A stretch of DNA of 21,254 nt from Candidatus Raymondbacteria bacterium RIFOXYA2_FULL_49_16 (GTDB lineage Bacteria; Fibrobacterota; OXYB2-FULL-49-7; XYB2-FULL-49-35), in assembly GCA_001789205.1 (NCBI GenBank), contig MFYT01000015.1, forward strand, positions 93,881-115,134, in the 5' to 3' direction. Positions 26 to 15,067 of the stretch are shown here, piece by piece (position 1 is the stretch's first letter; each line of letters begins with the position of its first letter). Made by a program: the position numbers and the translations under genes. The notes under the pieces were generated by a model. The model did not search any database. It had not been told where the DNA came from and was given only the letters and a program-made list of their open reading frames with translations.

Positions 26-1387
26 TCAGAACACAATTCCTGCGGTTACCTGCACCATCAATGGATCGCTGAAGTACGTGTATTCGGTCTTGTCCGGACC
101 CAGGTTCTGGATTAGGGTTACTCCCAGCGAAAAATTGTTCAATGTGGTATAGGTAAGCGCTTCTGAAATCACAAAGCTGCTTTCTTCAATATTGCAGATT
201 GCGTTTGCGCTTAATGTCATACTGCTGGTTATGAACCTGCCGAAACTGGTGAAGAGCGACGCATACCAATAGGCGTGCTCATTTGGCCTATAGAGGTTAT
301 TCATAAGAAAGTATTCCAGTTTTGTCACCCCTTGCAGCACAATGGGCGGCAACGAATTGGTTAAAGAGTCGGGAAGAGGGATGGGGCTTACTGCGGCAAT
401 GCTCTGTTCGTCCCCCTGCCACCGGTAATGGGTTGTGTCCTCGAATATCCGACTGTTGTTCCCTGCGCCGTTATAATAGCCTTCGGCAACTACCATAATC
501 CTGTCTGGTATGCCGTTGAAGTCAAAAGCGTGCGAAAGGCCTAGGGCTGCACGGGGCGCCCATTCTTTGGGACCTTTTTCAAGGCTCAGAACGCCGTTGT
601 TTTCCCGCATTACCATCTCGTTGTCGCGCCTGAAAACGCTCATTTCACCGGAAATGTCAATGGTCAACAGCCTTGACGAGAAATCCAATCCCAAAACCGG
701 TTTTTTTCCTTTTTTGTTCCACGCGGCAATTGCCATTTCCGTACCGCTTGCCACTACTTCAAATTTGATTGAGCCCGATGATTCGAGCAGGGAATCCGCG
801 TTGCGTACGTCCCAAAAGCCATAGAGATTGGCGCGCGTGCCATAGGGAACGTGCATTTTGAGACCATAGGCGCCTTCGCGGTAACCAATTTTTTTAATAA
901 AACTCACGCGTTCAACATTGATGAGATCCGTGGGGTTCCAGAAATAGCACCGCCCCCATTGCAGTACCTGCTTGCCTGCCCGGAAATAGGCCAGGTTGTT
1001 CAGGTTTGCATCGATAAAGAGTTCCCTGATATAAAACTCCGCGGAATCAGAGGCAGGCGTATAGCGCGCCTCTGTGTTTAAAAAGCTTTTTGCGCCGCCG
1101 GGAAGACGCGCGTCGAGTAGCAGGTTGGCCACCATATAGGCGGAAAGGCGCGGTGTGTCCCACGAATCGCGCGGAAATGAGACCATGCCCGCGCTGGTAA
1201 CTTCCCCGGAAAAGCCAACGGCCTTTTGCTCGTCAGCGTTTGTGATGGCTTCGCTATTATTGAGCGGTGTCTGGGTCACGGTTGCAGTGTCGTCGAACAT
1301 TGCGGATTCATCGATGTCTTGGGGCCATGCGCTTATTGTGCACAGGAATATAATCGCCATGATGAATGATATGGGAATTATTTTCAT
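26..1387 (-). CDS. Predicted outer-membrane beta-barrel protein (DUF1302/porin-like), last gene of the TetR-ABC-LolA-like operon
   Basis: Complete 453-aa protein. A hydrophobic N-terminal signal peptide (about residues 1-21) is followed by a short acidic, low-complexity stretch (about 22-57). After that come alternating amphipathic strands typical of a beta-barrel, ending in an aromatic residue (...TAGIVF), the usual outer-membrane insertion signal. The segment around residues 134-156 (FRAGKQVLQWG, then WNPTDLIN) resembles the GxQxxxWG...NPxD signature of DUF1302/alginate-export-like barrels that accompany envelope exporters. It starts 5 bp after the stop of the LolA-like gene, so it is co-transcribed and probably serves as the outer-membrane end of the ABC system upstream. 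The barrel fold is inferred from sequence pattern; the substrate is unknown. Nothing identifiable lies in the 25 bases after its stop. Confidence 0.75.
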   Translation of the reverse strand: MKIIPISFIMAIIFLCTISAWPQDIDESAMFDDTATVTQTPLNNSEAITNADEQKAVGFSGEVTSAGMVSFPRDSWDTPRLSAYMVANLLLDARLPGGAKSFLNTEARYTPASDSAEFYIRELFIDANLNNLAYFRAGKQVLQWGRCYFWNPTDLINVERVSFIKKIGYREGAYGLKMHVPYGTRANLYGFWDVRNADSLLESSGSIKFEVVASGTEMAIAAWNKKGKKPVLGLDFSSRLLTIDISGEMSVFRRDNEMVMRENNGVLSLEKGPKEWAPRAALGLSHAFDFNGIPDRIMVVAEGYYNGAGNNSRIFEDTTHYRWQGDEQSIAAVSPIPLPDSLTNSLPPIVLQGVTKLEYFLMNNLYRPNEHAYWYASLFTSFGRFITSSMTLSANAICNIEESSFVISEALTYTTLNNFSLGVTLIQNLGPDKTEYTYFSDPLMVQVTAGIVF

Positions 1388-1392
1388 GATAT

Positions 1393-2145
1393 TTATTTGC
1401 TCAAATTCTCTAAATATGCCTTGGTAAATATTTTATCATCCAGCTCCTGTGTTGCAATATTCGATATCTCCACAATGGTCTTGTTACCCTTTTCGAATTC
1501 GTCGATGAACATCTGTTTGACACACACGTAGCGGCCGTCGATCTGCGTGTAGTTGATGAAATAGGCTGTCTGCATAAGCGTGTTTGAGGATGAGTATGAT
1601 TCCTCTTTGAGCATCAGGAAGTTGTCGCGGCGCACCCACATGATCTGTTTGGGATAGTCCACGTCGTTCACAATGCCCTTGATTTCCAACTTGTACACGG
1701 GAATTTTTCCCAGCATTTCCTCGGATATGGCCTCACTCCCGGATGAGTCCTTGGCTGCCGTGTACATCTCGGTAAGCTTTCTGTTTTCAAAATCCTCGCC
1801 ATGGGCGTCAGATCCGCCAATGGACTCGTCTCTGTTGACGTGCTGGAAGGTACGTGTGTTGCGGCGGTACATCCAGAAATTGTCATCAACGCGCAGATAG
1901 CCATTTCCTTTTTCGTTTTCGGGCGCTGTCATGACCATGAGAAAGGCGTTGTCCCGGTCGCGGCGATACCAAAGAATATCGAAGTTTTTGACTCCCTCGT
2001 CTTTTTTCTGCTGGGTCATTTGTACGCGCGCTTTTGCATCAGAGGTCATTTTGTAGATGTCCTCCATTTTTTTCAGTACGTCGTGTATGGACGGCATGCT
2101 GAAGGCCGCGGCTGCGAGGATGAGGGGCAGGATGATGGTTTTCAT
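1393..2145 (-). CDS. Outer-membrane lipoprotein-sorting protein, LolA-like (COG2834)
   Basis: A 250-aa periplasmic protein. A short signal peptide (about residues 1-17, ending AAAFS) precedes a LolA/LolB-like fold. The diagnostic stretch is about residues 80-118: GNGYLRVDDNFWMYRRN, then TRTFQHVNRDESIGGSDAHGEDF. This matches the 'gyL...dnlW.Y.P..r....i....gSDf...D' pattern of the LolA_like / 'outer membrane lipoprotein-sorting protein' family. That family is distinct from canonical LolA, and its members often sit beside RND or FtsX-type ABC exporters. It lies between the permease genes and the barrel gene, so it probably carries a lipid or acylated cargo across the periplasm from the permeases to the barrel. 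It is separated from the upstream permease by a 98-bp gap holding a G-rich repeat, and from the barrel gene by 5 bp. Cargo is inferred, not seen. Confidence 0.85.
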   Translation of the reverse strand: MKTIILPLILAAAAFSMPSIHDVLKKMEDIYKMTSDAKARVQMTQQKKDEGVKNFDILWYRRDRDNAFLMVMTAPENEKGNGYLRVDDNFWMYRRNTRTFQHVNRDESIGGSDAHGEDFENRKLTEMYTAAKDSSGSEAISEEMLGKIPVYKLEIKGIVNDVDYPKQIMWVRRDNFLMLKEESYSSSNTLMQTAYFINYTQIDGRYVCVKQMFIDEFEKGNKTIVEISNIATQELDDKIFTKAYLENLSK

Positions 2146-2170
2146 GGTAGGGTCCTTTTTATTTAGGAAC

Positions 2171-2238
2171 CCACTCCCCCCGCCCCCTCTCCCTTGTCTT
2201 TACAAGGGAAAGGGGGAAAGGGGGAAAGGGGGTGAGGG
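2171..2238. repeat. REP-like C/G-rich imperfect hairpin with an AAAGGGGG tandem triplet
   Basis: The 98-bp gap between the first permease and the LolA-like gene holds a C-rich tract (2171-2193) and a G-rich tract (2206-2238). They flank a perfect 7-bp stem, CCCTTGT (2191-2197) / ACAAGGG (2202-2208), with a 4-nt loop. Three exact tandem copies of AAAGGGGG follow at 2209-2216, 2217-2224 and 2225-2232, then a GGTGAGGG tail. The C-rich half, the G-rich half and the GTGAGGG end resemble dispersed intergenic palindromes (REP/MITE-like) common in many bacterial genomes. Read on the transcript strand it would fold strongly inside the operon and could weaken expression of the last two genes or protect upstream mRNA. 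No T-run follows, so it is not a typical terminator. Confidence 0.65.
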
Positions 2239-2243
2239 TTCTC

Positions 2244-4007
2244 TTACTCATAGTGTCTTAGGGCTTCGCAGGCAGACATATTGGCTGCCTTGCGCGAGGG
2301 AAAAAATGCTGTTGCTCCGGCAATGGCCCAGATGAGCGCGTTGTATCCAATGACCGCGATCACCGTGGGTACGAACACCAGGTGGCCGCTCACCAGCAGC
2401 ATGGCCATTGGATTGTCGCCTGCGTTGATGTTGATGAGCGAAAGCAGGCGCATGCCGATAAACGCCAGTACCGTGCCTGCGGCAGAAGCGAAGATGGCCA
2501 GGAACACGGTCTCGGCGATGAAGGTGTTACGCACGTCCTTTTTCTGCATGCCGATGGCGCGTATAGTCCCTATTTCGCGGGTGCGCTCGCGTATTGTCAT
2601 GCGCAGGGTGTTGATCACGCCGATCAATATTATGCAAAAGAGCACCATGACGCAGACAAGGGTGATGAGGTTGAGCGCGTACTCCAGTTTGATGATGGCG
2701 CTGGCACCCTCGTACATGGTCGAGACCGAGACCTGGGTCGACCGCCACTTGTTTTTACTGATCTCCTTGTACAGCTTCATCAGGTCTTCGGATGACGATA
2801 TGCGGCGCAGAAGCGTCCATTCGCCCGGGATGGCGTCAAGGACCTTGAACGAGCTGTCTGGCAGCAAGGTACGCAGACTGTCCGGCAGAAACGCGGGCAG
2901 GTTGCCGTAATATGCCTTGTAGAAGTCCCGTTCGTTCACAAGGATGATCCGGCTATCGAGCACCGAGTCCCCGCGTATGCCTTTGACTATGAACTTGAGT
3001 CTGCCTTCCTCGGCATCGTATTTGGACGAATACCTGACAACGCAGGTATCGCCGAGAGAAAGGCCGCTCTCACGCGCCATGGTCTTGCTGATGACTGCGC
3101 CTGTACGCGAGTAGCCCGTGTCGGGCGCTCCCATAACAAGAGGCAACTCTTTCCTGCAGAGTTTGAGCGATACAGTGTCTGACTTGAAGGGCAGGACCAG
3201 AGCAGGGGCAGGGCCGACCTTGCATCCTATGGTGCAGCCTATGGCCGCGGGTCCGGGTTTTAGGAGCTTTTGCAGGCGGTCCGCGACAATGACCGCGTCC
3301 TTCACTGGGTCCTTGACGTTTATCATCAGTTGGCCAGCTTCGTAGGGCTTGTACCCCGCCAGCCGCTTGACGATTTTCTGGTCAACGAACACGGGCATGG
3401 ACATGAAGAAATTGGTGGGCTGGAACACACCCACTACGGTGAACGATGCCGCCTGGTTCTGGCCGTTGATGTCTCTGAACCGGGCCTTGACCACGTCACC
3501 CATTTTGAGATTCAAGTATTCGGCTTTTTCCTTTGAGATGATGAGCGGATTGGCGATGCCGGGCGCCTCGAGATCCTCGAAGCGGCCCTCGACCATTGCG
3601 AAGTTCTCCTCCATGTTCTTTTGGTCCTCGGGCGCGAGGGTGTCATGGATGTTGACGCCTACGATCATCACGATGTCGGACCGTCCGTTACCAATGGCCT
3701 GGCCGAAAACGCCTATGGCCTCTTGCACAGCGGTCACCTCGGGATTGTTTTCCCTGATGATGCGTTTGATCCGGTCGCCCTCGTGCACGATCTGGCGCTC
3801 GAAATTACCGTTCTCGGTCGCGCTGATGTTCACGTTGCCGTAGGTGATGGCCACGATCCGTTTGAACATGGTGTCTGTGATGCCGTGCGAGAACGAATTG
3901 GTGAGGATGAGGATGAACGTGCCAAAGGCGATGGCAATGCCCAGAAGGATATTCCGCCGTTTCTGGCGCAGTAGATTCCTGAGTGCAATTGATAAGATTA
4001 ATTTCAT
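2244..4007 (-). CDS. ABC transporter permease, FtsX/MacB (LolC/E) type, with a duplicated periplasmic module
   Basis: A 587-aa inner-membrane protein. TM1 is at about residues 18-37 after a basic start. A long extracytoplasmic domain (about 40-435) follows, then three C-terminal TM helices (about 442-467, 497-523, 545-569). The cytoplasmic loop RTREIGTIRAIGMQKKDV (about 475-492) is the FtsX-family coupling motif. The periplasmic part is larger than the usual single MacB_PCD domain. The motif 'ISK..A..L.L..GD......F.V.G' occurs at about 156-194 and again at about 305-343, indicating an internal duplication. Four cysteines (258, 262, 284, 322) lie in the inserted part. It starts 9 bp after the partner permease, and the pair should form a heterodimer with the ATPase encoded at 5547-6227. 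Lipid or lipoprotein extraction is inferred from family and neighbours. Confidence 0.85.
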   Translation of the reverse strand: MKLILSIALRNLLRQKRRNILLGIAIAFGTFILILTNSFSHGITDTMFKRIVAITYGNVNISATENGNFERQIVHEGDRIKRIIRENNPEVTAVQEAIGVFGQAIGNGRSDIVMIVGVNIHDTLAPEDQKNMEENFAMVEGRFEDLEAPGIANPLIISKEKAEYLNLKMGDVVKARFRDINGQNQAASFTVVGVFQPTNFFMSMPVFVDQKIVKRLAGYKPYEAGQLMINVKDPVKDAVIVADRLQKLLKPGPAAIGCTIGCKVGPAPALVLPFKSDTVSLKLCRKELPLVMGAPDTGYSRTGAVISKTMARESGLSLGDTCVVRYSSKYDAEEGRLKFIVKGIRGDSVLDSRIILVNERDFYKAYYGNLPAFLPDSLRTLLPDSSFKVLDAIPGEWTLLRRISSSEDLMKLYKEISKNKWRSTQVSVSTMYEGASAIIKLEYALNLITLVCVMVLFCIILIGVINTLRMTIRERTREIGTIRAIGMQKKDVRNTFIAETVFLAIFASAAGTVLAFIGMRLLSLININAGDNPMAMLLVSGHLVFVPTVIAVIGYNALIWAIAGATAFFPSRKAANMSACEALRHYE

Positions 4008-4016
4008 GGTGCGCTC

Positions 4017-5543
4017 CTAGTCCCGTGATATCGCGTCGAGCGGGGTAATGCCGCGCGCGACCTTGAGGGGGTATATAACTGCGATGCAGGTGACCAGCGC
4101 GAGCTGGAAAATGGAGAGGAAGATATCCACTCCGGTCAGCATGGGATGGAAGGTGTCGCCGCCAAAAAGCAGCTGGACCATGTCATTGTCCGAGGTAATC
4201 GCGAACAGGGAGGTTATCTTCACCGCGACGGCGCCTACCAGAATGCCAGCGCCGCCAAAGACAAAGGAAAGCATGGCGGTCTCGGCAAAGAACATTTTGC
4301 TGATGAACCCTTTACGTGCCCCTACGGCGCGCATCATACCGATCTCCGAAGTCCGCTCAAGCGCTGCCATTGAGAGCGTGTTCACAATGATAATGATGGC
4401 CACAAAGAAGAGGATCATGACAAAGACAAAGAGCGCGGTCTTGATCAGTATGGTCATGCTGCCCACAGGGCCAAGGCCTTTTTCCCATGTGACCGCACGC
4501 GCGTTTACAGGTTCCAGCGCCTTGTTGAGTTCAACAAGCGCCTTTGCCCTGTCAGCGCCGGGCTTAAGTTTCACAAAAATGAGATTATAAGCTCCGGTCT
4601 CAAGATCGACAGTTTTTAAAGCGGGAGAGGCTGATTTCCGGTGCTTCAGGTCAGCCTCGTTAAACGATGATTTTTTATTGGCCACCATGATTGTGGCGTC
4701 GGAAAAGAGCGCATCGAGGTTTTCGTCCTCCATGCCAAGCAGCTCTTTTTTTTCCGGCGCAATTGAATCGACCTTGTCCGAGGCCGCTATATAGCCCAGA
4801 CAGTTTCGGTACGACTCGATGTCCATGAGCACAAAGTGGCCCCAGATCTTGTTCAGTGACCTGTATTTCATGATCCCGCGCACAGGCAGGCGGATGTCGT
4901 TGGTCGAATTGTCCGCATTGAACCCCATGAGGACCGCGTTTTGCTTGATCGAAAGGTCGTTCCTGTTGGCGCGCGCATCGTCAGTCAAATTCGCGGTGTC
5001 GAGCGATGTGCTCTCGGGAATAAACCAGATGCTGGTGAAATCATAAAACTGCTGGCGCGCGCCGGAAGGCACCATGGCGCCCTGTTCGTGCGGCCGGGGC
5101 GGATTGCCCTCGATGACCTTGAAATTGTCCGGGAACATCTCCTTGTACTTGTCGAAGTCCACGCCGATGACAAAGGCGTTTCCCGGGGTCCCGCCGTCCT
5201 CGTTGAGCACAATGGCCATGTTCTTGCCCGCTGGCAGAAAGCCGGAGATGTATGGCTGGCCCTCGAGCACGGGCCTGATCTCCTTGAAATTGTAGATAGG
5301 TTCAACCGCCTTGGCCATCATGCCCATGAGCACGTTGTCATCCTTCTGCTTCTTGGCCATGATAATGATGTCGCCGGTAAAGCCCTTGACCACGCTGGTC
5401 TTGAGTCCCTGCTCCATGCCCGAGACCACGCCATTGCCCGCGGTCATGAGAAAGGCGCCCATGAAGAGGATTGCGCCAATGACCAAGCTTTTGCCTTTGT
5501 GGCGCATGATATTGCGCCAGGCTATTTTGAATATAAGGTCCAT
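4017..5543 (-). CDS. ABC transporter permease, FtsX/MacB (LolC/E) type, second subunit
   Basis: A 508-aa protein with the LolC/LolE/MacB layout. TM1 is at about residues 18-38. A periplasmic domain spans about 40-360, and three TM helices follow at about 364-388, 416-440 and 472-492. The cytoplasmic loop ERTSEIGMMRAVGARKGFISKMF (about 396-418) is the conserved FtsX motif thought to contact the ATPase, and the C-terminus RGITPLDAISRD is typical of the family. It begins 3 bp after the stop of the ATPase gene and ends 9 bp before the next permease gene, so the three are tightly coupled. Unlike its partner it shows no obvious duplicated periplasmic module. It is unlikely to be canonical LolC/E because the operon also encodes a TetR protein, a COG2834 carrier and a barrel. 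Confidence 0.85.
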   Translation of the reverse strand: MDLIFKIAWRNIMRHKGKSLVIGAILFMGAFLMTAGNGVVSGMEQGLKTSVVKGFTGDIIIMAKKQKDDNVLMGMMAKAVEPIYNFKEIRPVLEGQPYISGFLPAGKNMAIVLNEDGGTPGNAFVIGVDFDKYKEMFPDNFKVIEGNPPRPHEQGAMVPSGARQQFYDFTSIWFIPESTSLDTANLTDDARANRNDLSIKQNAVLMGFNADNSTNDIRLPVRGIMKYRSLNKIWGHFVLMDIESYRNCLGYIAASDKVDSIAPEKKELLGMEDENLDALFSDATIMVANKKSSFNEADLKHRKSASPALKTVDLETGAYNLIFVKLKPGADRAKALVELNKALEPVNARAVTWEKGLGPVGSMTILIKTALFVFVMILFFVAIIIIVNTLSMAALERTSEIGMMRAVGARKGFISKMFFAETAMLSFVFGGAGILVGAVAVKITSLFAITSDNDMVQLLFGGDTFHPMLTGVDIFLSIFQLALVTCIAVIYPLKVARGITPLDAISRD

Positions 5544-5546
5544 GGG

Positions 5547-6227
5547 TCAGCCTTCCTTCACAATGAGGCCGTCCCGTATCTTGACAACGGCCCTGGCGTA
5601 TTTGAGCACATGCTCGTCATGCGTGGAGAAGATGAAGGTGGTCTGCGACACGCGGTTCATCTCCATCATGGTCTCAAGAATTTGCGCGCCGGTCACGGAA
5701 TCGAGGTTTGCCGTGGGTTCATCGGCAAGCACAATGTCCGGATTGGTGACCAATGCGCGTGCAATGGCAACGCGCTGGCGCTGGCCGCCCGAAAGTTCCG
5801 CGGGCCTATGGTGGCTGTATTCCGTCAACCCCACCTTGTCGATGAGTTCAAGCGCCTTTTTACGCACTTCGGTTTTGGAATACTTTTTCATGAGCAATAG
5901 CGGGAATTCGACATTCTCTGTCGCATTGAGCACTGGTATAAGGTTGAACGTTTGGAAGATAAACCCGATCTTGTGCAGCCGTATGTCGGTTATTGCGCTG
6001 TCCTTGAGTTCGTGGATCTCAGTACCGCCCACGGCAATTGTGCCTGTGGTGGCAAAATCAATGCACCCTATTATATTGAGCAGGGTGGTCTTTCCGCTGC
6101 CCGAGGGGCCCATGATGGAAAGCAGGTTGCCTTTCTCAACCGCAAGGTCGATCCCGCGCAGGGCATGGACCGTAGTCTCGCCAAGGGGGTAGTCTTTGAT
6201 CACATTTTTGAGTTCAATGATGTTCAC
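5547..6227 (-). CDS. ABC transporter ATP-binding protein, LolD/MacB type
   Basis: A 226-aa cytoplasmic ATPase with all family motifs: Walker A GPSGSGKT (40-47), Q-loop Q92 in FQTFNLIPVL, signature LSGGQ (145-149), Walker B IVLADEPT (165-172), and the switch histidine in STHD (H203). The length and the motif FQTFNLIPVLNATENVEFPL are typical of the LolD/MacB-ATPase/FtsE subfamily that powers FtsX-type permeases. The start is a GTG whose first four bases (GTGA) overlap the tetR stop. A strong Shine-Dalgarno sequence (GAAAGGAG) lies about 5 bases upstream inside tetR, so translation is probably coupled to the regulator. It should energise the two permeases encoded immediately downstream. Confidence 0.93.
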   Translation of the reverse strand: MNIIELKNVIKDYPLGETTVHALRGIDLAVEKGNLLSIMGPSGSGKTTLLNIIGCIDFATTGTIAVGGTEIHELKDSAITDIRLHKIGFIFQTFNLIPVLNATENVEFPLLLMKKYSKTEVRKKALELIDKVGLTEYSHHRPAELSGGQRQRVAIARALVTNPDIVLADEPTANLDSVTGAQILETMMEMNRVSQTTFIFSTHDEHVLKYARAVVKIRDGLIVKEG

Positions 6228-6973
6228 GATACGCTCCTTTCATCGGTTGACGTCTGCCACATTGCCCGCTTCTGCTCCGGATTTTCAGGCGTTGTGACAA
6301 TAGAATCAATGGTATATTCCCAGATTTTGATATAAATGTCATCGATTTTTCCCACAGGGATGGGGAAGGGGTTGGGCTTGTCCTGAAAATACCGTTCGTG
6401 CTGTTTGATGTGATCGAGCATAAGGATAACGCCGTTTGATGAGGCATAGAGCCCCACGGCTGTTGCAACTGGATCAACTGTTGGTTTGAATTCGCCTGAG
6501 TCTATGCCTTTTTTCACGCACTCCACGCACACATCCCAAATCTGGTAGTTGCGGCTTGCAATGTCCGAGAGGATGTTGTTTTTCATGTCCAGGTGCGGGT
6601 CACCTTCAGTTTGGTGCGTACCGAATTCACCCATGCCATTGATCATTTTAAAATACCACGGATGTTCTCGATAGAATTCAAGATAAGAACGGCCAACAAC
6701 CCTGAGTCGGTCTGAGCCTGAAAGGTTGACCGCAGCGGCAGCTGACAAATGTTCGTATAGATTATCGAGCGCTCGTTTCACAATTTCAATGACCAACTCT
6801 TCTTTGCTTTTATAATATAGATAGAGGGTTGCCTTTGAAAGTTCGCATTCTTTTGCGATATCATCCATGGTTGTTTTTGCTAAACCATTGTCGATAAATA
6901 AATTCTCTGCAGCTGAAATAATCTGTTCAGCGCGCTGCTCTTTTTCTCGTTGTTTTCTTTCAGTAATTCCCAT
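6224..6973 (-). CDS. TetR/AcrR-family transcriptional regulator, first gene of the exporter operon
   Basis: A 249-aa regulator. The N-terminal TetR_N domain covers about residues 14-62, with the helix-turn-helix at about 33-56 (TTMDDIAKECELSKATLYLYYKSKEEL), a textbook match. The C-terminal helical domain (about 75-235) is the ligand-sensing and dimerisation part and is unassigned. It heads the exporter operon and overlaps the ATPase gene by 4 bp. The promoter upstream (TTGACA-N17-TATATT) carries a perfect 19-bp palindrome over the -10 element, so autorepression and repression of the whole exporter is the natural reading. No Shine-Dalgarno precedes the ATG at 6973; this start is kept because it places the TetR_N domain correctly and no other ATG precedes the HTH. 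Confidence 0.92.
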   Translation of the reverse strand: MGITERKQREKEQRAEQIISAAENLFIDNGLAKTTMDDIAKECELSKATLYLYYKSKEELVIEIVKRALDNLYEHLSAAAAVNLSGSDRLRVVGRSYLEFYREHPWYFKMINGMGEFGTHQTEGDPHLDMKNNILSDIASRNYQIWDVCVECVKKGIDSGEFKPTVDPVATAVGLYASSNGVILMLDHIKQHERYFQDKPNPFPIPVGKIDDIYIKIWEYTIDSIVTTPENPEQKRAMWQTSTDERSVS

Positions 6974-6986
6974 AAATACTGTACTG

Positions 6987-7015
6987 TTGGTTATTTACTG
7001 ACCGTTGGTTATAAT
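6987..7015 (+). promoter_or_regulatory. Candidate divergent plus-strand promoter toward the 50-aa gene
   Basis: TTGGTT (6987-6992, 3/6 match to -35) is followed after 17 bp by a perfect -10 TATAAT (7010-7015). The -10 shares the palindrome with the tetR promoter on the other strand. The predicted start near 7022 would give a leader of about 115 bases before the ATG at 7138. The weak -35 means this is plausible, not certain. Confidence 0.45.
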
Positions 7016-7023
7016 ATAACCAA
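7005..7023. promoter_or_regulatory. Candidate TetR operator: 19-bp perfect palindrome
   Basis: TTGGTTATAATATAACCAA is a perfect inverted repeat with 9-bp arms around a central A, placed exactly over the -10 elements of both divergent promoters. The half-site GTTGGTTAT occurs again in direct orientation at 6986-6994, 18 bp away. A second inverted repeat, GACAAT-TT-ATTGTC, is at 7026-7039 and overlaps the -35 side of the tetR promoter. Size and position fit a TetR dimer site. Binding is inferred. Confidence 0.6.
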
Positions 7024-7041
7024 AAGACAATTTATTGTCAA
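7013..7041 (-). promoter_or_regulatory. Sigma-70-type promoter of the tetR-exporter operon
   Basis: Read on the minus strand, TTGACA (7041-7036, 6/6 match) is followed after 17 bp by TATATT (7018-7013, 5/6 match). The predicted transcript start is near 7006, about 33 bases before the tetR ATG. The -10 box lies inside the palindrome at 7005-7023. Confidence 0.7.
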
Positions 7042-8334: not shown

Positions 8335-8685
8335 TTATTTCTTTTTTATCGTCTGTGTTCGCGCAGCAGCCATTTTTTTCGCATGACCCAGCAGGCCAAG
8401 CTCTTTGACCTGGGCTATGCACGCGGCCCTGTCTGATTTGAAAATAAGCGCGAAGATCTTTGACATCAGATTGTTGACCTTTTTGCACGCCTTGGGGTTT
8501 TTAAATTCACCGCAGTCAGCGCATGTGGTGTAGTTTTTTTCGATGCAGCAGAGCCGTATTTTGCACCAGGTCGCCTTTGTGTTTTCGTGGCAGCCTTTGC
8601 AGCGTTCTTTTAGATACGCGCCGCATGCACCGCAATAGAGGCCGCAATAGGCCACCAGTTCAGGTTTCTCGGTTACTTCACGCAT
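8335..8685 (-). CDS. DUF3795-like cysteine-rich small protein
   Basis: A 116-aa protein from the ATG at 8685. This start is preferred over an ATG at 8742 inside the HIT gene because a strong Shine-Dalgarno sequence (GAGGAG) lies a few bases upstream, and the conserved core begins just after it. Eleven cysteines lie at 14, 18, 21, 29, 32, 41, 46, 47, 55, 58 and 67. The opening YCGLYCGACGAY followed by CKGC and later CCxxK...C..C is the DUF3795 pattern, and suggests zinc or Fe-S binding. The C-terminal third (about 75-116) is basic and helical. It follows the HIT gene by 28 bp and precedes the HsmA-type gene by 15 bp. Function of the family is unknown. Confidence 0.8.
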   Translation of the reverse strand: MREVTEKPELVAYCGLYCGACGAYLKERCKGCHENTKATWCKIRLCCIEKNYTTCADCGEFKNPKACKKVNNLMSKIFALIFKSDRAACIAQVKELGLLGHAKKMAAARTQTIKKK

Positions 8686-8713
8686 GATATTCTCCTCACT
8701 TTTATTGATACTT

Positions 8714-9190
8714 TCATTTGGCATTTTTAATTGTCTTGCCACGGATTTTTGACGCGATTTTTGCTAATTGATAATCTGGAGCGCGTTTACAGTCATGGGA
8801 TGAAATATAGCCCTCATAGGCATGAAAAAACTTTGTTTGTTTTGATATAATGGGCTTCCTTTTTTTTAATTTGGCTGTTCCGTGCATGGGAAACAACTTT
8901 GCGTGAACATGGTCTACGCCAAATCCTTCAAAAATCAAACCTGTTCTGCCAACCCCAGGCAGTTTCTTATCAATAAGCTTACCGACTTTTTTGGCAGCAA
9001 GGACCAGTTTTGTCAATACTGATTCTTTCAGGTCAAATGCATAGGAAGAATAATGTTTTTTCGGGATTACAACGGTAAAACCAGGGGTGTTTGGGAAAAT
9101 GGTCAAAAATGCAAGATGTGTTTTGCTTTCCCACACTTTGTGGCATGGTATTTCTTTGGCCGCGATTTTACAAAATAGGCAGTCTTTCAT
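8714..9190 (-). CDS. HIT-family protein with altered histidine triad (HxHxK)
   Basis: A 158-aa member of the histidine-triad nucleotide hydrolase/transferase superfamily. The N-terminus MKDCLFCKIAAKEIPCHKVWES, the strand FLTIFPNTPGFTVVIPKKHY (about 28-47), and the active-site segment GFGVDHVHAKLFPMH (about 89-103) are clear HIT features. The first two histidines, including the middle one that is the nucleophile in HINT/FHIT, are present. The third triad position is lysine (HVHAK instead of HVHxH). The CxxC at residues 4-7 may bind zinc, as in other HIT proteins. It is the first gene of a three-gene unit with a good promoter about 80 bp upstream and a purine-rich ribosome binding site (AAGGAAAAGG). 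Nucleotide substrate unknown; activity cannot be assumed given the triad change. Confidence 0.87.
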   Translation of the reverse strand: MKDCLFCKIAAKEIPCHKVWESKTHLAFLTIFPNTPGFTVVIPKKHYSSYAFDLKESVLTKLVLAAKKVGKLIDKKLPGVGRTGLIFEGFGVDHVHAKLFPMHGTAKLKKRKPIISKQTKFFHAYEGYISSHDCKRAPDYQLAKIASKIRGKTIKNAK

Positions 9191-9422: not shown

Positions 9423-11210
9423 TTAAAAGGCCTGTCCCACGTTAAAACCGATGTTATACCACGATTCCGTGTTTTGAGGGACCGGGTTAATGGCGAAATC
9501 AGACCTGACAATGCCAATGGGTGTATTGACCCGCAGGCCGATTCCCGGTGAAAATCTGAGACTGCCAAAAGAGAAATCACCGGCATTTGCCCATACATTT
9601 CCCGCGTCAAAAAACAGGGCCATGCCAACCATTTTATATATCACCTGCCGTATTTCAACAAGATTCCAGACCACCTTGAACATGCCTCCGAGCGGCACGC
9701 CATTATTGTCAATAGGCCCCACGGATTGGTAGGCAAACCCGCGGATGGAGTTAATGCCACCCGTATACAATCGTTCGTTCGGAGGAATCTCTTTGGAATT
9801 TCCATAGGAACCTATCCAGCCGGCTTCTAAGGCTGTTGCCAGCACTGTCGGCGGTCGCAATGAATGAAAGTATTTACCTGATACAATACTTCGTACAAAA
9901 TTATTCGTTCCATTAAATACCGCGCCAGCCAGCTCATTGGTCCATCCCAGGTACACGCCGCTTCTTGCGTTGAATAGATTGTCGCGCGTATCATACGTAA
10001 TTGCCGGCATTATGCTTCTGACATTTGCGGTCAGGGTATCGGGAATTGCGCTCACCCGGATATTGCTCAGGTCCGCGTTTTCATATTTTGTTGTTAGCGA
10101 CAGGGTAAGGTTGTCGCCCAGGGCCTGTCCAAAAACAAGCTTGCCGCCCCTGCGAAAAAGATTATATCCGGGCTCTTCCAAAAAGCCGACATATGCGCTT
10201 ACATCGGTGCGCAAATGGATGCCAAAGGCCCATGGGTCGGTAAAGGAGGCCTCAATTTCCTGCTGCAGAACGCTTAGTTTTGCAGCGCACCCTATTTTCC
10301 GGGCAGTTCCCGCAATATTATCATGGGTCACTTCAAACCGTACCCTGGCTTTTTCCTCAGTACCGTATCCGGCTGACATGTTTAACGTAATGGCCTTTTC
10401 CTCCCGCAACTCTATGAGAATGTCTTTCATTGACGAATCGCCGGATGCGGCCGGAACAGGATGGATGTACACAGCCTGGAAGAGGCCGGTCAGATAGAGC
10501 TGCCGCTGGGAGCGGAGGAGCTGTGAAACGGCAATGGGTTTTTCTCGATCAAGAACAAGTTCACGTTCAACAACAGAAAGTTTTGTCCGTTTCAGACCTT
10601 TGTATATCGTCTGAGACAAGTGAAATTGGGCACCCTCATCAATTACTATGCTGACGTCCACCGAATGGGATCCGATATCAACAGAGAAAACCGGTTCCAC
10701 GCGCGCATCAAGATAGCCGTTTTCCGTGTACAGGTTAGTGATGTTCGCCAGGGAGTCCCGGATAGTATTTTTCCTGAAAATATCTCCTGGACCAACAGCC
10801 GCCAGGCGCAACAGCGTACTGTCCGGATATATGGAGTTACCGGAAATGCCGGCCGAACGGACATGATACAGGGCGCCTTCGACAATGGCGATCCTGATTG
10901 AGACCTTGCGGGCAGCTGAATCGATTGCGACAGATGTATCGGAAATATGTACGTCCAGGAATCCATTCTCCTTGTAATACAGCGTTACATTTTCCAGGTC
11001 ATGGTTAAATAAGGCTTGATGAAAATATTGAGAAAAGAAAAGTTTTGACTGCCGGGTGACCATTGTACGCTGCAACTGTTTGTCCGAAAAAGAACTGTTT
11101 CCCGAGAAAGCAAGAGACAGCACTTTGAGCCGGGATTGCGGCGCTTTGGCATTGGCCGCACATACGCAAAAAAGCGCCGTGATACATACCAGAAGGGTTC
11201 GATTATTCAT
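9423..11210 (-). CDS. tamA: TamA-like outer-membrane Omp85 assembly protein
   Basis: A 595-aa Omp85-superfamily protein. A signal peptide ends near residue 21 (AANA). Three POTRA-like repeats follow, each with a 'G....' turn and 'Y...GY.....' strand: about 28-110 (YYKENGFLDV), about 113-190 (YTENGYLDARV) and about 195-275. A C-terminal 16-strand-type barrel covers about 280-595. The barrel contains the lid-lock motif IRGF (489-492) within YTGGINSIRGF and ends in an aromatic residue (GQAF). The three POTRAs, the length (E. coli TamA is about 577 aa) and the adjacent tamB gene favour TamA over BamA. Its ATG overlaps the tamB stop by one base (TAATG), so translation is coupled. The pair forms a trans-envelope conduit for outer-membrane protein assembly and lipid transport. 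Confidence 0.88.
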   Translation of the reverse strand: MNNRTLLVCITALFCVCAANAKAPQSRLKVLSLAFSGNSSFSDKQLQRTMVTRQSKLFFSQYFHQALFNHDLENVTLYYKENGFLDVHISDTSVAIDSAARKVSIRIAIVEGALYHVRSAGISGNSIYPDSTLLRLAAVGPGDIFRKNTIRDSLANITNLYTENGYLDARVEPVFSVDIGSHSVDVSIVIDEGAQFHLSQTIYKGLKRTKLSVVERELVLDREKPIAVSQLLRSQRQLYLTGLFQAVYIHPVPAASGDSSMKDILIELREEKAITLNMSAGYGTEEKARVRFEVTHDNIAGTARKIGCAAKLSVLQQEIEASFTDPWAFGIHLRTDVSAYVGFLEEPGYNLFRRGGKLVFGQALGDNLTLSLTTKYENADLSNIRVSAIPDTLTANVRSIMPAITYDTRDNLFNARSGVYLGWTNELAGAVFNGTNNFVRSIVSGKYFHSLRPPTVLATALEAGWIGSYGNSKEIPPNERLYTGGINSIRGFAYQSVGPIDNNGVPLGGMFKVVWNLVEIRQVIYKMVGMALFFDAGNVWANAGDFSFGSLRFSPGIGLRVNTPIGIVRSDFAINPVPQNTESWYNIGFNVGQAF

Positions 11211-14200
11211 TATTCAAACCGTATGCCATATTTAAGGTCAAGACCGCCTGTTCCCTCTTGGTCAGTTTCACCTTCGAGCGAGAAATGGTCCGACAGCCGG
11301 TATGCAAGCCGCACGCTGTTCTCGTTCAGGTGGCCGACTTTTGTTTTAAGGGTAATTTCAAATTTTTTAGATATTTTTTTTGACGCGAGCAACGCCGGGT
11401 TCCAGTCGCGGCCAAAGTTGAAAAGGTTGCCTTCAATGGCAAGTTCGTCGAGCCCCACGTGCGAACCGACATTTTTTGATAAATATGCTGAGATTTTCTG
11501 CGTGGAGACAAAACCGGCACGTTCCAGAAGGGCCCCGCCTGCTTTGGCGTCTTTGCCGGTTATCTGATCGCGCGTGACCCCCAGGACCAGCAGTGAAACA
11601 ATGTTCGGCTTGTCCAAATACGGGTCTGCCGTCAATTCGGTGACCACGCTGTCGAGCGGTCCTCTGGCAGAAAAAGTGATGGCATATGAGGTGACATCGA
11701 GTGATTGATAGTTGTTGACATGGGTTGTCGCGGCCAGGTCAACGATGGGTACCGGACGGATCGGATTTAAAAAATCGATGCGGCAGCGGTCTAAAAGAAA
11801 TTTTCTGTCAAGAAAGAATATAGCGCCTTCCTCGGCTGATAAGCGGCCGTTTATGTTTGGCCGTACCGGGTTGCCGATAATGGTCAACTCGGGGTCTGTC
11901 CGTACGCGCGCAAGGTTGTTGTCAATCCAGATGTCGTTTGTACCGGAGACGCGGATGGAAAGGCGTATGGTCTCCATCCATGCGGGCCTAGGTTTTGCGG
12001 GTTTTTCAATTGTAGACAGAAAGGGAACAATGGATTTAATATCAATGTCCTGGACCACGCGGGATTTTCCAAAGACAAGAGACCCGGTCAGGGCGTATGC
12101 TTTTACGTCGCCGTTAAATGCCATATCTCCGCTCTGGACAGACAGAGTCACTACTTCGGGGAGCGCGATGCCGATGTCTTTGAGGCTGGCATGGATGGCT
12201 GCGCTATCGAGCCTGCCATTGGCATGCGATATGGTGCCTGCAATACTCACGGAACCTGTTCCCTGAGTCATCTGAAAGGTGTCGAGGCTTGCCGTTTGCT
12301 TGTCAAAAGAAAGAACACAAAGGCCATTCTCAAACGGTGTGGTTGTCCAAAAGGGAAGCCAGAACAGATCGCGTATGCGGACAAAGCCCTGTATCTGCGG
12401 TGAAGCCGGATTTCCCGTAACAGCCAATCGGGTGTCCGCTGTTCCGGATAGTTGGCCGATGTTTGGGAGCAGCGGCACAAGCGGGGCGAGGGCCATGTTT
12501 TTTATCTGTGTAAGCAGGTGCATTGAATCCGTAGCAATAAATCCAGTGCAAGTTATTTTGCTTACTTGAGCCATGGTGGCTTTCAGGTCAATGGTCATCG
12601 CTGACCATGCATCATGGACTATTTCACCCTGAACGGCAAAAGGCACCTCTTTGATACTACCGCTGAATCGGCGCACAACGATCATTGAATCGGCAATGGT
12701 GATGGAGGCCTGCAGGTCGCGGACCAGAGGAGCTTTGTCCAGCGCACCTACGGAGCCGGAAGTGATAGAGACTTCGCCTGTTGGGTTGGGTTGCGCAAGA
12801 GTGCCATTCCAGGACACAGAGCACGAAAGGGTTCCGGCAAGAATGGGCTTTTCCGGCAGCAATGGCCCAATGAGGGCCATGTCATACTTTTCGGCCAGAA
12901 TGGAACCCCGGAAAGGCGCGGTTTGCACTATGGAAAAGCCGGATGTCTGGTCAATGGTGAATGGAAGCAGTGCCTCGCCTTTGAGGTATGACCCTGAATC
13001 GTGGATGCCAAGGTCGTGGACGGTCACAACACCATTTTCCAGCACAAATGACCCGACCACGGAATCAAGATGTATGGCATTCATGCGTGGATGACGAAGC
13101 GAGAACGCAACTTCTCCGCGGGGGTTGTTTTGCGCCCCTGACAGCGATACATCCACACTGCATGTGCCTCCCATTGGGGGAAGAGCGTGGAAAAAAAGGC
13201 CGAGACTGTCGAGTACCAGGTTGTTTGTCCGCAGAGTTACGCTGATGGCCTGTTCGTCTGATAAATCAAACGACGTATGTACTGACCCGTAGGACGAAAA
13301 TCCAACTGGCGCACATTCCAGCGTATCAGCCTCAACCATATCCATGAGTTCGTGTTGCATATAGTGATTGGATATTCCAAACGCGCGCAACGTATATGCC
13401 CCCACAAGCTCTGGCACGCGTATAGCGCCTTGTGCGCACAACAGCAAGGGCCCGCGCTGCAGTAGTACGGAATGGAGAGATACTGACGTGCTCTGGAAGG
13501 TGAGGAAAAGCGAGCCATTGTCCGCACCAATGTCCTTAAACGCGGGTTTTACCAGATACAGGGAGACAGCGCCCGACAATGAGTCGATTGGGCCATGCAA
13601 GACTCCTTCAAATGCGAGTGCTTCGGCGATTTTCGGCAAGCCAAATATCGGCCGTGCTGAGTCGATGTCATTCAAGGTGCTTGAAAAGCGAGCGTCAGTA
13701 ATCCACACTCTGTTGTTCCTGTATTCGATGATACCCGCCAGACTGTCCGCATGCGCGTTGTAAAAAGAGAGGTCGCGTGTCCAGGCCCTGGCGCGTATTA
13801 CGGGCGAAGAGGTTGTTCCCGCAAGATCGCCTGTCAGATTGAGATCGCCTTCCAGAAATTCGACGCCAGCCAGTTTTGCGAGGTTATCTATTTTGAACAG
13901 CGACGCTGAGAAGCTGCCGCGCAGCTGGTTGTCCCTAAAGGGTATTGCGGCTGTTATGGCCGACATGTTTTGTGAAAGACTGAAATGCAGCGTATCGTGC
14001 AGTATTGACACTGTTGCAGCCACGGCTGGAATGGCTTTGCCTCCATACGCCAGGTGATGCAGGCCAAGAGTACCGCGCAGGTCCCACGATCCGGGATTGT
14101 GCAGGCTGCCGCGTGCGGTAACACGGCCCTGCATGTTTCCGCGCAGGCGCGGCGGGTATGACTTCCAGAAACCGCGCAAGCCCGAAAGGGCCGCGTTATC

Positions 14201-15067
14201 GGCATAGAGCGACATGGAGAATAATTGACTGGTGTCAAATCGAACAGATGCTGCGCCGTAAAGGGCGCCGTCGGTGGATTGTATTACGATCGTGTCAATG
14301 TTCACTGTTTTTTCCCGATACCTGAATGCGCCGGCCCCGGACACGGCCAATTCGTTGTACACAAAGGAGAACGAGGGGATTTCAAGGTTTGGCGCGATCC
14401 AAGCCCATTGCAGATCTATCTTTTTAAAAAGGAGCAGCGATTCTTTGTAGGTTATTCTGCAAGTGTCGGCGGTGATACCGCCCGAAAAACCGCCTGTTGT
14501 AATTTGGCGTGCGTGGATATCCGCATTGGCGAGAGATACGCTGATTCCTGTCATGGCGCTGTCCTTAAATACCAAAAACGAATGACGTATATCCAGGCGT
14601 TGGATCGGGATGGTGATTTCTGATGTGTCCGGCGCAGCTGTGGAATCTTTAGTGTTGTTTAAAAGAGCCAGGTTAAAAATTCCAGCACTGTCCCGGTCTA
14701 AGTAAACCAGGAGACTGTCCATTGTGCATGCGGTAATGAACTGACGGCCCTTTTTTACCAGGTCCAGAAGGCTGTAGGTCATGGTTATACGGCCCAGTGA
14801 AACCACGGGATGTTCCTCGTGGATCGAATCAAGGCTGGAAATGCGTATGCTTTTCGCGGTAATCGTAGAAACAACATTTGTGTTTATTGACCCAATACTG
14901 ATTGTATGACCAATGACTTTTTGGAGTTTTGTTTCAACAAAGGGCGTAACAAATGAAGTACCGTATGCCAGGCCAAACCAGAGTGCAACAAGGGCAAGGC
15001 CAATTATGGCAATAACAATGGCCGCAATGTTCCGGAAGAAACGAATACAAGAGGTACCACTGTTCAT
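11210..15067 (-). CDS. tamB: TamB-like translocation/assembly module protein (DUF490)
   Basis: A 1285-aa AsmA-like bridge protein, close to the usual TamB length. A single N-terminal TM anchor (about residues 13-36, AAIVIAIIGLALVALWFGLAYG) is followed by long repetitive beta-strand segments that form a hydrophobic groove. The C-terminal DUF490/TamB domain (about 950-1285) has typical features: WIDNNLARVRTDPELTIIG, then RLSAEEGAIFFLDRKFLLDRCRIDFLNP, 'DPYLDKPNIVSLLVLGVTRDQI', and a final beta-rich tail ending LDLKYGIRFE. It spans the periplasm and docks onto TamA, with which it overlaps by one base. It begins 55 bp after the diguanylate cyclase gene. No good Shine-Dalgarno lies before the ATG at 15067, but the TM anchor position supports that start. 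Confidence 0.9.
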   Translation of the reverse strand: MNSGTSCIRFFRNIAAIVIAIIGLALVALWFGLAYGTSFVTPFVETKLQKVIGHTISIGSINTNVVSTITAKSIRISSLDSIHEEHPVVSLGRITMTYSLLDLVKKGRQFITACTMDSLLVYLDRDSAGIFNLALLNNTKDSTAAPDTSEITIPIQRLDIRHSFLVFKDSAMTGISVSLANADIHARQITTGGFSGGITADTCRITYKESLLLFKKIDLQWAWIAPNLEIPSFSFVYNELAVSGAGAFRYREKTVNIDTIVIQSTDGALYGAASVRFDTSQLFSMSLYADNAALSGLRGFWKSYPPRLRGNMQGRVTARGSLHNPGSWDLRGTLGLHHLAYGGKAIPAVAATVSILHDTLHFSLSQNMSAITAAIPFRDNQLRGSFSASLFKIDNLAKLAGVEFLEGDLNLTGDLAGTTSSPVIRARAWTRDLSFYNAHADSLAGIIEYRNNRVWITDARFSSTLNDIDSARPIFGLPKIAEALAFEGVLHGPIDSLSGAVSLYLVKPAFKDIGADNGSLFLTFQSTSVSLHSVLLQRGPLLLCAQGAIRVPELVGAYTLRAFGISNHYMQHELMDMVEADTLECAPVGFSSYGSVHTSFDLSDEQAISVTLRTNNLVLDSLGLFFHALPPMGGTCSVDVSLSGAQNNPRGEVAFSLRHPRMNAIHLDSVVGSFVLENGVVTVHDLGIHDSGSYLKGEALLPFTIDQTSGFSIVQTAPFRGSILAEKYDMALIGPLLPEKPILAGTLSCSVSWNGTLAQPNPTGEVSITSGSVGALDKAPLVRDLQASITIADSMIVVRRFSGSIKEVPFAVQGEIVHDAWSAMTIDLKATMAQVSKITCTGFIATDSMHLLTQIKNMALAPLVPLLPNIGQLSGTADTRLAVTGNPASPQIQGFVRIRDLFWLPFWTTTPFENGLCVLSFDKQTASLDTFQMTQGTGSVSIAGTISHANGRLDSAAIHASLKDIGIALPEVVTLSVQSGDMAFNGDVKAYALTGSLVFGKSRVVQDIDIKSIVPFLSTIEKPAKPRPAWMETIRLSIRVSGTNDIWIDNNLARVRTDPELTIIGNPVRPNINGRLSAEEGAIFFLDRKFLLDRCRIDFLNPIRPVPIVDLAATTHVNNYQSLDVTSYAITFSARGPLDSVVTELTADPYLDKPNIVSLLVLGVTRDQITGKDAKAGGALLERAGFVSTQKISAYLSKNVGSHVGLDELAIEGNLFNFGRDWNPALLASKKISKKFEITLKTKVGHLNENSVRLAYRLSDHFSLEGETDQEGTGGLDLKYGIRFE

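Follow-up and report, generated by a model that had tools for sequence, protein, structure and literature searches.

A conserved five-gene cassette joining a type VII ABC pump to a LolA-like carrier and a porin-like barrel in a Raymondbacteria genome: a probable export route for a hydrophobic molecule

What would a bacterium that already encodes the Lol lipoprotein-sorting proteins move with a further, Lol-like set of parts? The question is raised by a 21,254-nucleotide stretch of the Candidatus Raymondbacteria bacterium RIFOXYA2_FULL_49_16 genome (contig MFYT01000015.1, positions 93,881 to 115,134 of the forward strand; hereafter the window). It carries an operon for a TetR-family regulator, an ATP-binding cassette (ABC) ATPase, two permeases, a LolA-like periplasmic carrier and an outer-membrane β-barrel. 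We find that five of these genes form a conserved unit that stands apart from the housekeeping Lol genes, and propose that they probably make up a pathway dedicated to exporting a hydrophobic molecule, dissolved in the membrane, across the envelope.

An open reading frame (ORF) check of the window returned six ORFs, all head to tail on the minus strand, with the positions and spacings given by an earlier interpretation made from the letters of this DNA (the sequence-only reading), including its upper limit of 98 bp for gaps. The TetR stop is overlapped by 4 bp by the GTG start of the ATPase gene; the downstream spacings are 3 bp (ATPase to permease 1), 9 bp (permease 1 to permease 2), 98 bp (permease 2 to carrier) and 5 bp (carrier to barrel). 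With protein families assigned by Pfam and NCBIfam models, the operon and the elements associated with it are as follows.

6224..6973, minus strand: TetR-family regulator, the operon's first gene and an optional part of it (TetR_N, E = 3e-17)
5547..6227, minus strand: ABC ATPase of the LolD/MacB type, GTG start, Walker A motif GPSGSGKT and LSGGQ (ABC_tran, 3e-32)
4017..5543, minus strand: permease 1, FtsX/type VII, 508 amino acids (aa) (FtsX, E = 2e-16)
2244..4007, minus strand: permease 2, FtsX/type VII, 587 aa, enlarged periplasmic domain (FtsX, E = 1e-14; MacB_PCD, E = 1e-11)
1393..2145, minus strand: LolA_like (PF17131) periplasmic carrier, 250 aa, signal peptide and no lipobox (PF17131, E = 8e-40)
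26..1387, minus strand: outer-membrane β-barrel, 453 aa, signal peptide, C-terminal Phe, motif GKQVLQWGRCYFWNPTDLINVE
2146..2243, minus strand: 98-nt gap with a very stable RNA hairpin (minimum free energy −56.9 kcal/mol, z −5.7)
7013..7041, minus strand: sigma-70-like promoter sequence TTGACA-17-TATATT upstream of the TetR gene (consensus scan only, 11/12)
7007..7021, no strand assigned: palindrome GGTTATAATATAACC overlying the −10 box, a candidate TetR operator proposed from sequence

The gene order proved to be widely kept. A first scan of named genomes yielded six relatives, labelled in their records as Fibrobacteres, Pseudomonadota, Bacillota or plain bacterium; four had the full five-gene order and two were cut by contig ends after the carrier. 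A wider search with a permease 2 profile covered four phylum-rank genome samples, no two of which shared a genome, and was positive in 21 of 150 genomes of the window's phylum, 31 of 198 around locus L027, 2 of 199 around L029 and 2 of 9 around L025. ATPase, permease 1, permease 2, carrier and barrel were complete, on the same strand and in this order at 34 of the 45 homologous loci read out, a conservation of gene order far beyond chance. Most intergenic gaps were below 250 bp, L025, L064 and L065 having longer insertions, and identity to the window was 62–85% for the ATPase, 31–51% for permease 2 and 27–42% for the barrel. The remaining 11 loci were cut by contig ends or had no detectable barrel, and L123, L125 and L133 had no detectable carrier either. 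A TetR homologue preceded the ATPase gene in two loci only, L117 (39%) and L129 (27%). A conserved six-gene unit, as the sequence-only reading had it, was rejected on this count: its five transport genes stand as the conserved unit, and the TetR gene is an add-on. Sequences of different phylum samples interleaved in the ATPase and permease trees, many forks of which were weak, suggesting transfer between lineages. No plasmid-borne copies of the cassette were found.

A dedicated pathway would leave lipoprotein sorting to other genes, and these were found when the whole genome was scanned (5.4 Mb, 112 contigs, completeness 100; C and L numbers are our handles for places in this genome and for loci read out). 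The best match to the LolCE model, at C12, scored 326 bits over positions 2–410 of 411, slightly under the equivalog cut-off of 362, and is directly followed by a gene for a LolD-type ATPase. In a quick tree with long branches this permease clustered with Escherichia coli LolC and LolE (SH-aLRT 98), and the C12 ATPase clustered with E. coli LolD. A true LolA lies at C97 as the genome's sole PF03548 match (55.7 bits, cut-off 23.6), and the genome search returned no LolB. The window cassette, by comparison, reaches neither the LolCE nor the LolD equivalog score, its permeases do not group with LolC/LolE, and its carrier is not of the PF03548 family. Because separate housekeeping LolC/E, LolD and LolA exist, the cassette is freed from lipoprotein sorting.

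The ATPase and both permeases belong to the type VII ABC (FtsX/LolCDE/MacB) superfamily. The top model for the ATPase was LolD, at 229 bits and hence below the equivalog cut-off of 308; permease 1 and permease 2 scored 54 and 41 bits against the LolCE model (cut-off 362). In the quick, long-branched tree each permease formed a conserved clade of its own, apart from LolC/LolE and MacB, which is what a permease 1/permease 2 heterodimer would lead one to expect. The AlphaFold2 model of permease 2 (predicted local distance difference test score, pLDDT, 83) has the type VII layout, in which a large periplasmic domain lies between a single N-terminal helix and three C-terminal ones. Its top Foldseek match was lipoprotein-bound LolE (9rld_E, E = 1e-17, template-modelling score by target 0.73), and in VIA-align no one chain stood out among LolE, MacB and their relatives, all with Z of about 20–21. 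At 587 aa, compared with 414 aa for E. coli LolE, permease 2 has ~170 extra residues in its periplasmic part.

The carrier was assigned to the LolA_like type by the sequence-only reading, and it indeed scored 136.9 bits against PF17131, well above the curated cut-off of 30; no other family matched. Its profile matched solved LolA-superfamily proteins, namely 3buu (2e-20), 9tp6, 4z48 and 3bk5, and its conserved motifs include ESIGGSDA and DEFEKGNK. At the N terminus of both carrier and barrel lies a hydrophobic stretch that resembles a signal peptide and has no lipobox, and the barrel ends in Phe, a residue usual at the C terminus of outer-membrane barrels. A sequence search returned no solved structure for the barrel (best E 0.3). 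Its AlphaFold2 model (pLDDT 75) matched OprD/Occ porins with Z 23–24 and a root-mean-square deviation of 3.0–3.8 over about 300 residues; chitoporin and AlgE folds matched as well, within an overall Z of 22–24, so that the predicted fold is that of an OprD/AlgE-like porin. The porin-like part of the earlier description as a DUF1302/porin-like barrel is thereby upheld in the model, whereas a score of 12.7 bits against DUF1302 (PF06980, cut-off 23.2) does not make it a called member of that family. The most conserved stretch, R-GKQVLQWGR-YFWNPTDLINVE, overlaps the weak DUF1302 match, and a strict G(K/R)-WG-NP pattern occurs in 13 of 15 aligned barrels of the cassette family, the other two being off by one residue.

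Two loci showed departures from the simple layout. At L029 (717-6527) a second, divergent cassette adjoins the first: a gene for a weaker TetR homologue leads it, followed by a 352-aa protein that ends in SF and has no GKQ-WG-NP motif, an ATPase (53%), two shorter permeases and a LolA_like protein (27%). At L025 (3473-4798) a 441-aa ORF (start MKLTLIAPPEGEGGKPVVRM) stands between permease 1 and permease 2 in an otherwise complete cassette.

Nor is the operon unique in its genome; it is one among several cassettes that join a LolA_like gene to a barrel gene. Five clear LolA_like (PF17131) genes were found, the window's included, each adjoining a barrel-like protein. The other four are arranged as follows.

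C39: TetR-barrel-MMPL-carrier, the barrel above the DUF1302 cut-off
C8: MMPL-carrier-barrel
C39, ABC version: ATPase-permease-carrier-barrel
C108: carrier-barrel near a contig end

Beyond the window, then, two carrier-barrel pairs go with RND (MMPL) pumps and a third has an ABC pump smaller than the window's. This compact ABC version (L030, 3016-6873) consists of an ATPase, one permease, a LolA_like protein and a 386-aa barrel, and its neighbours read like ArsR-type regulators and redox proteins. Among the compared loci, all five barrels end in Phe and contain G(K/R)x(1-4)WGx(3-7)NP, a pattern present in 0 of 258 other ORFs; the window barrel thus shares its motif with a called DUF1302 protein of the same genome. 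When the barrel profile was compared by hhalign with three single paralogous barrels, probabilities were low to moderate, and in two of these comparisons the motifs lined up. Since whole-length profile scores are weak and not significant, homology of the barrels rests on motif, partner gene and fold. The same signature and LolA_like partner beside either kind of pump points to carrier and barrel as a module paired with ABC or RND, and the two may cooperate in receiving cargo from whichever inner-membrane pump is present.

Regulation appears to be a local matter. The promoter-like sequence (7041-7013) lies 40 bp before the TetR start, and the palindrome sits on its −10 box. Reading by eye revealed palindromes at the TetR-gene promoters of L117 (ATACATACTATTAGTTATT..AATAACTAATAGTATGTAT) and L129 (TTACTTA..TAAGTAA). 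On these sequences the simplest reading is an autorepressed operon opened by a ligand. As the TetR gene is optional, present in the window and in 2 of 45 loci, "inducible" may hold for the window's lineage and not for the system. Of the dedicated, inducible pathway first proposed, the dedicated part is supported by conserved order and a separate Lol system; inducibility applies, perhaps, to this lineage alone.

The hairpin of the 98-nt gap consists of C/T-rich and G-rich tracts and has no U-run. Strong hairpins also occur at long gaps in L027, L072, L121 and L122; many relatives have none, and the hairpin sequence is not repeated elsewhere in the genome. It might be an mRNA processing or stability element that protects or separates the carrier-barrel message. 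Given its absence from part of the relatives and the lack of a genome repeat, we claim no essential role for it.

The work of type VII ABC transporters is mechanical and done at the periplasmic face, typically to extract something from the inner membrane; it is the partner protein that defines their function (PMC12646458). Here the pump's partner is a LolA-fold carrier, and a hydrophobic cargo, bound inside the LolA cavity, is therefore to be expected. In the mechanism we propose, the ATPase dimer would power a complex with the heterodimer of type VII (FtsX/LolE/MacB-fold) permeases, which would pull the molecule, by mechanotransmission, out of the inner membrane and pass it to the soluble carrier. 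Shielded in this way across the periplasm, the molecule would be handed to the OprD/AlgE-like barrel, standing in for LolB, and would then be inserted into the outer membrane or released. TetR probably represses its own promoter through the −10 palindrome, and repression would be relieved by the cargo or a precursor.

The sequence-only reading named two outcomes that would speak against it, an order not kept in relatives and a genome with no other LolCDE. Neither came about, since gene order is conserved and a housekeeping Lol system exists separately, and a pathway reserved for a hydrophobic cargo is therefore the reading we prefer. Several observations weigh against it. L062, L070, L078, L079 and L123 have no detectable barrel, and L133 has neither carrier nor barrel nearby; in places, therefore, the barrel may be dispensable or encoded elsewhere. 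Among the neighbours of the cassette loci, no gene for making or modifying a cargo recurs: L027 and L028 have patatin-like neighbours and two other loci acyl-CoA-ligase-like ones, and neither kind recurs widely. Finally, OprD-like barrels of known function mostly import small molecules, and likeness of fold proves no function.

The cargo may be a lipid or lipopeptide, as the sequence-only reading proposed; efflux of a toxic hydrophobic compound is nearly as likely. In that version, a serious possibility if not our expectation, the operon would be an inducible, ABC-driven analogue of the AmeABCD system, clearing an exogenous or metabolic compound and not exporting the cell's own lipid. A leading TetR gene with a promoter palindrome is common in efflux pumps, the RND cassette at C39 also has a TetR gene, AmeABCD itself sets a precedent, and the patchy distribution (21/150 and 31/198 genomes) fits an accessory function. 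Yet 43 of 45 cassettes have no TetR gene, LolA-fold carriers paired with type VII pumps are known to handle acylated cargo, and no catabolic or resistance genes recur as neighbours. Efflux would narrow the cargo of our preferred explanation and is compatible with its mechanism.

Readings that change the task of the cassette fare worse. A second, specialised Lol paralogue sorting a subset of lipoproteins would draw on the LolD-like ATPase, LolE-like fold and LolA-fold carrier, and without a detected LolB the lipoproteins of this organism need some receptor; it is nevertheless unlikely, as housekeeping LolC/E, LolD and LolA are present, the carrier is PF17131 and not PF03548, no lipoprotein gene recurs beside the cassette, and no porin-like barrel is known to accept lipoproteins. 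Uptake, with the barrel admitting a hydrophobic nutrient that the carrier brings inward, would suit a fold nearest the uptake porins OprD/Occ. We consider it very unlikely: type VII ABC transporters act on the periplasmic side and are not known to import (PMC12646458), and the cassette genes include no importer-type binding protein. That the cassette is the organism's housekeeping Lol system has resemblance of parts alone in its favour and is ruled out for practical purposes by the C12 LolC/E and LolD, which group with E. coli, by the LolA at C97, by the window permeases' own clades and by the restriction of the cassette to a minority of the phylum (21/150).

Parts and general layout of the proposed export route have precedents, the closest being AmeABCD of Castellaniella and BBJ23-29 of Borrelia. 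AmeABCD of Castellaniella defragrans, which has been studied experimentally, combines an RND/HAE3 pump, a LolA-superfamily DUF1329 protein and a DUF1302 barrel, and its deletion lowers tolerance to apolar monoterpenes (PMC6394551). Like the window, it unites an inner-membrane pump, a LolA-superfamily periplasmic protein and a DUF1302-type barrel in one cassette, for a hydrophobic substrate; it differs in its RND pump, DUF1329 carrier and extra AmeC, whereas the window has a type VII ABC pump, a PF17131 carrier and a barrel below the DUF1302 threshold. RND versions in this genome are those at C39 and C8. In Thalassolituus, an MMPL/LolA-like protein is up 42-fold on C28 alkane, and a predicted porin next to it is seen on that alkane alone (PMC6304351). 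Borrelia BBJ23-29 is a proposed exporter of a non-polar ligand, with one permease (proposed homodimer), an Omp85 barrel, two tetratricopeptide repeat (TPR) proteins and an unknown protein (PMC13078400); the six genes of the window operon include no TPR or Omp85 protein, and their barrel models as OprD/AlgE-like.

Lol (LolCDE-LolA-LolB) shares with the window a type VII ABC pump with two permeases and a LolA-fold carrier; the window cassette, which exists beside the housekeeping Lol of a genome with no LolB found, differs in its separate permease clades, its other LolA-superfamily family and its barrel gene. In YbbAP-TesA the recipient is a hydrolase instead of a carrier and barrel, and the permease has ten helices (PMC12646458). 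MacAB-TolC is alike in permease fold and trans-envelope layout; in contrast, the window operon has no MacA adaptor or other membrane-fusion protein and no TolC-like duct, and its ATPase and permease are separate chains. The combination of a two-permease ABC pump with a porin-like barrel may be new: a description of exactly this layout was not found in the open-access papers searched.

Elsewhere in the window (9423-15067), an Omp85/POTRA protein (595 aa; Omp85 by Pfam) is preceded, with a 1-bp overlap, by a 1285-aa protein that is TamB-like by look only, a putative TamA-TamB pair next to the cassette. At 8335-8742 and 8714-9190, a small DUF3795 protein overlaps the end of a HIT-like protein. 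None of the genes that separate the cassette from the Tam pair is a conserved neighbour.

Little is known of the ways in which lipids and other hydrophobes traverse the periplasm, Lol, Lpt and Mla apart. Tentatively, and with a little less than even confidence, we suggest a widespread and so far undescribed pathway of lipid export. Its standard module would be a LolA-fold carrier with a GKQ-WG-NP barrel, coupled to an ATP-driven type VII ABC pump or a proton-driven RND pump, the barrel replacing LolB and the five-gene cassette having moved between phyla. The pairing of carrier and barrel with either pump suggests one mechanism behind AmeABCD, the Thalassolituus alkane proteins and perhaps Borrelia BBJ. 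With every compartment represented and its order kept across phylum-rank differences, the five-gene cassette offers a compact genetic target, and the docking of a LolA-fold carrier on a barrel becomes a directly testable question.

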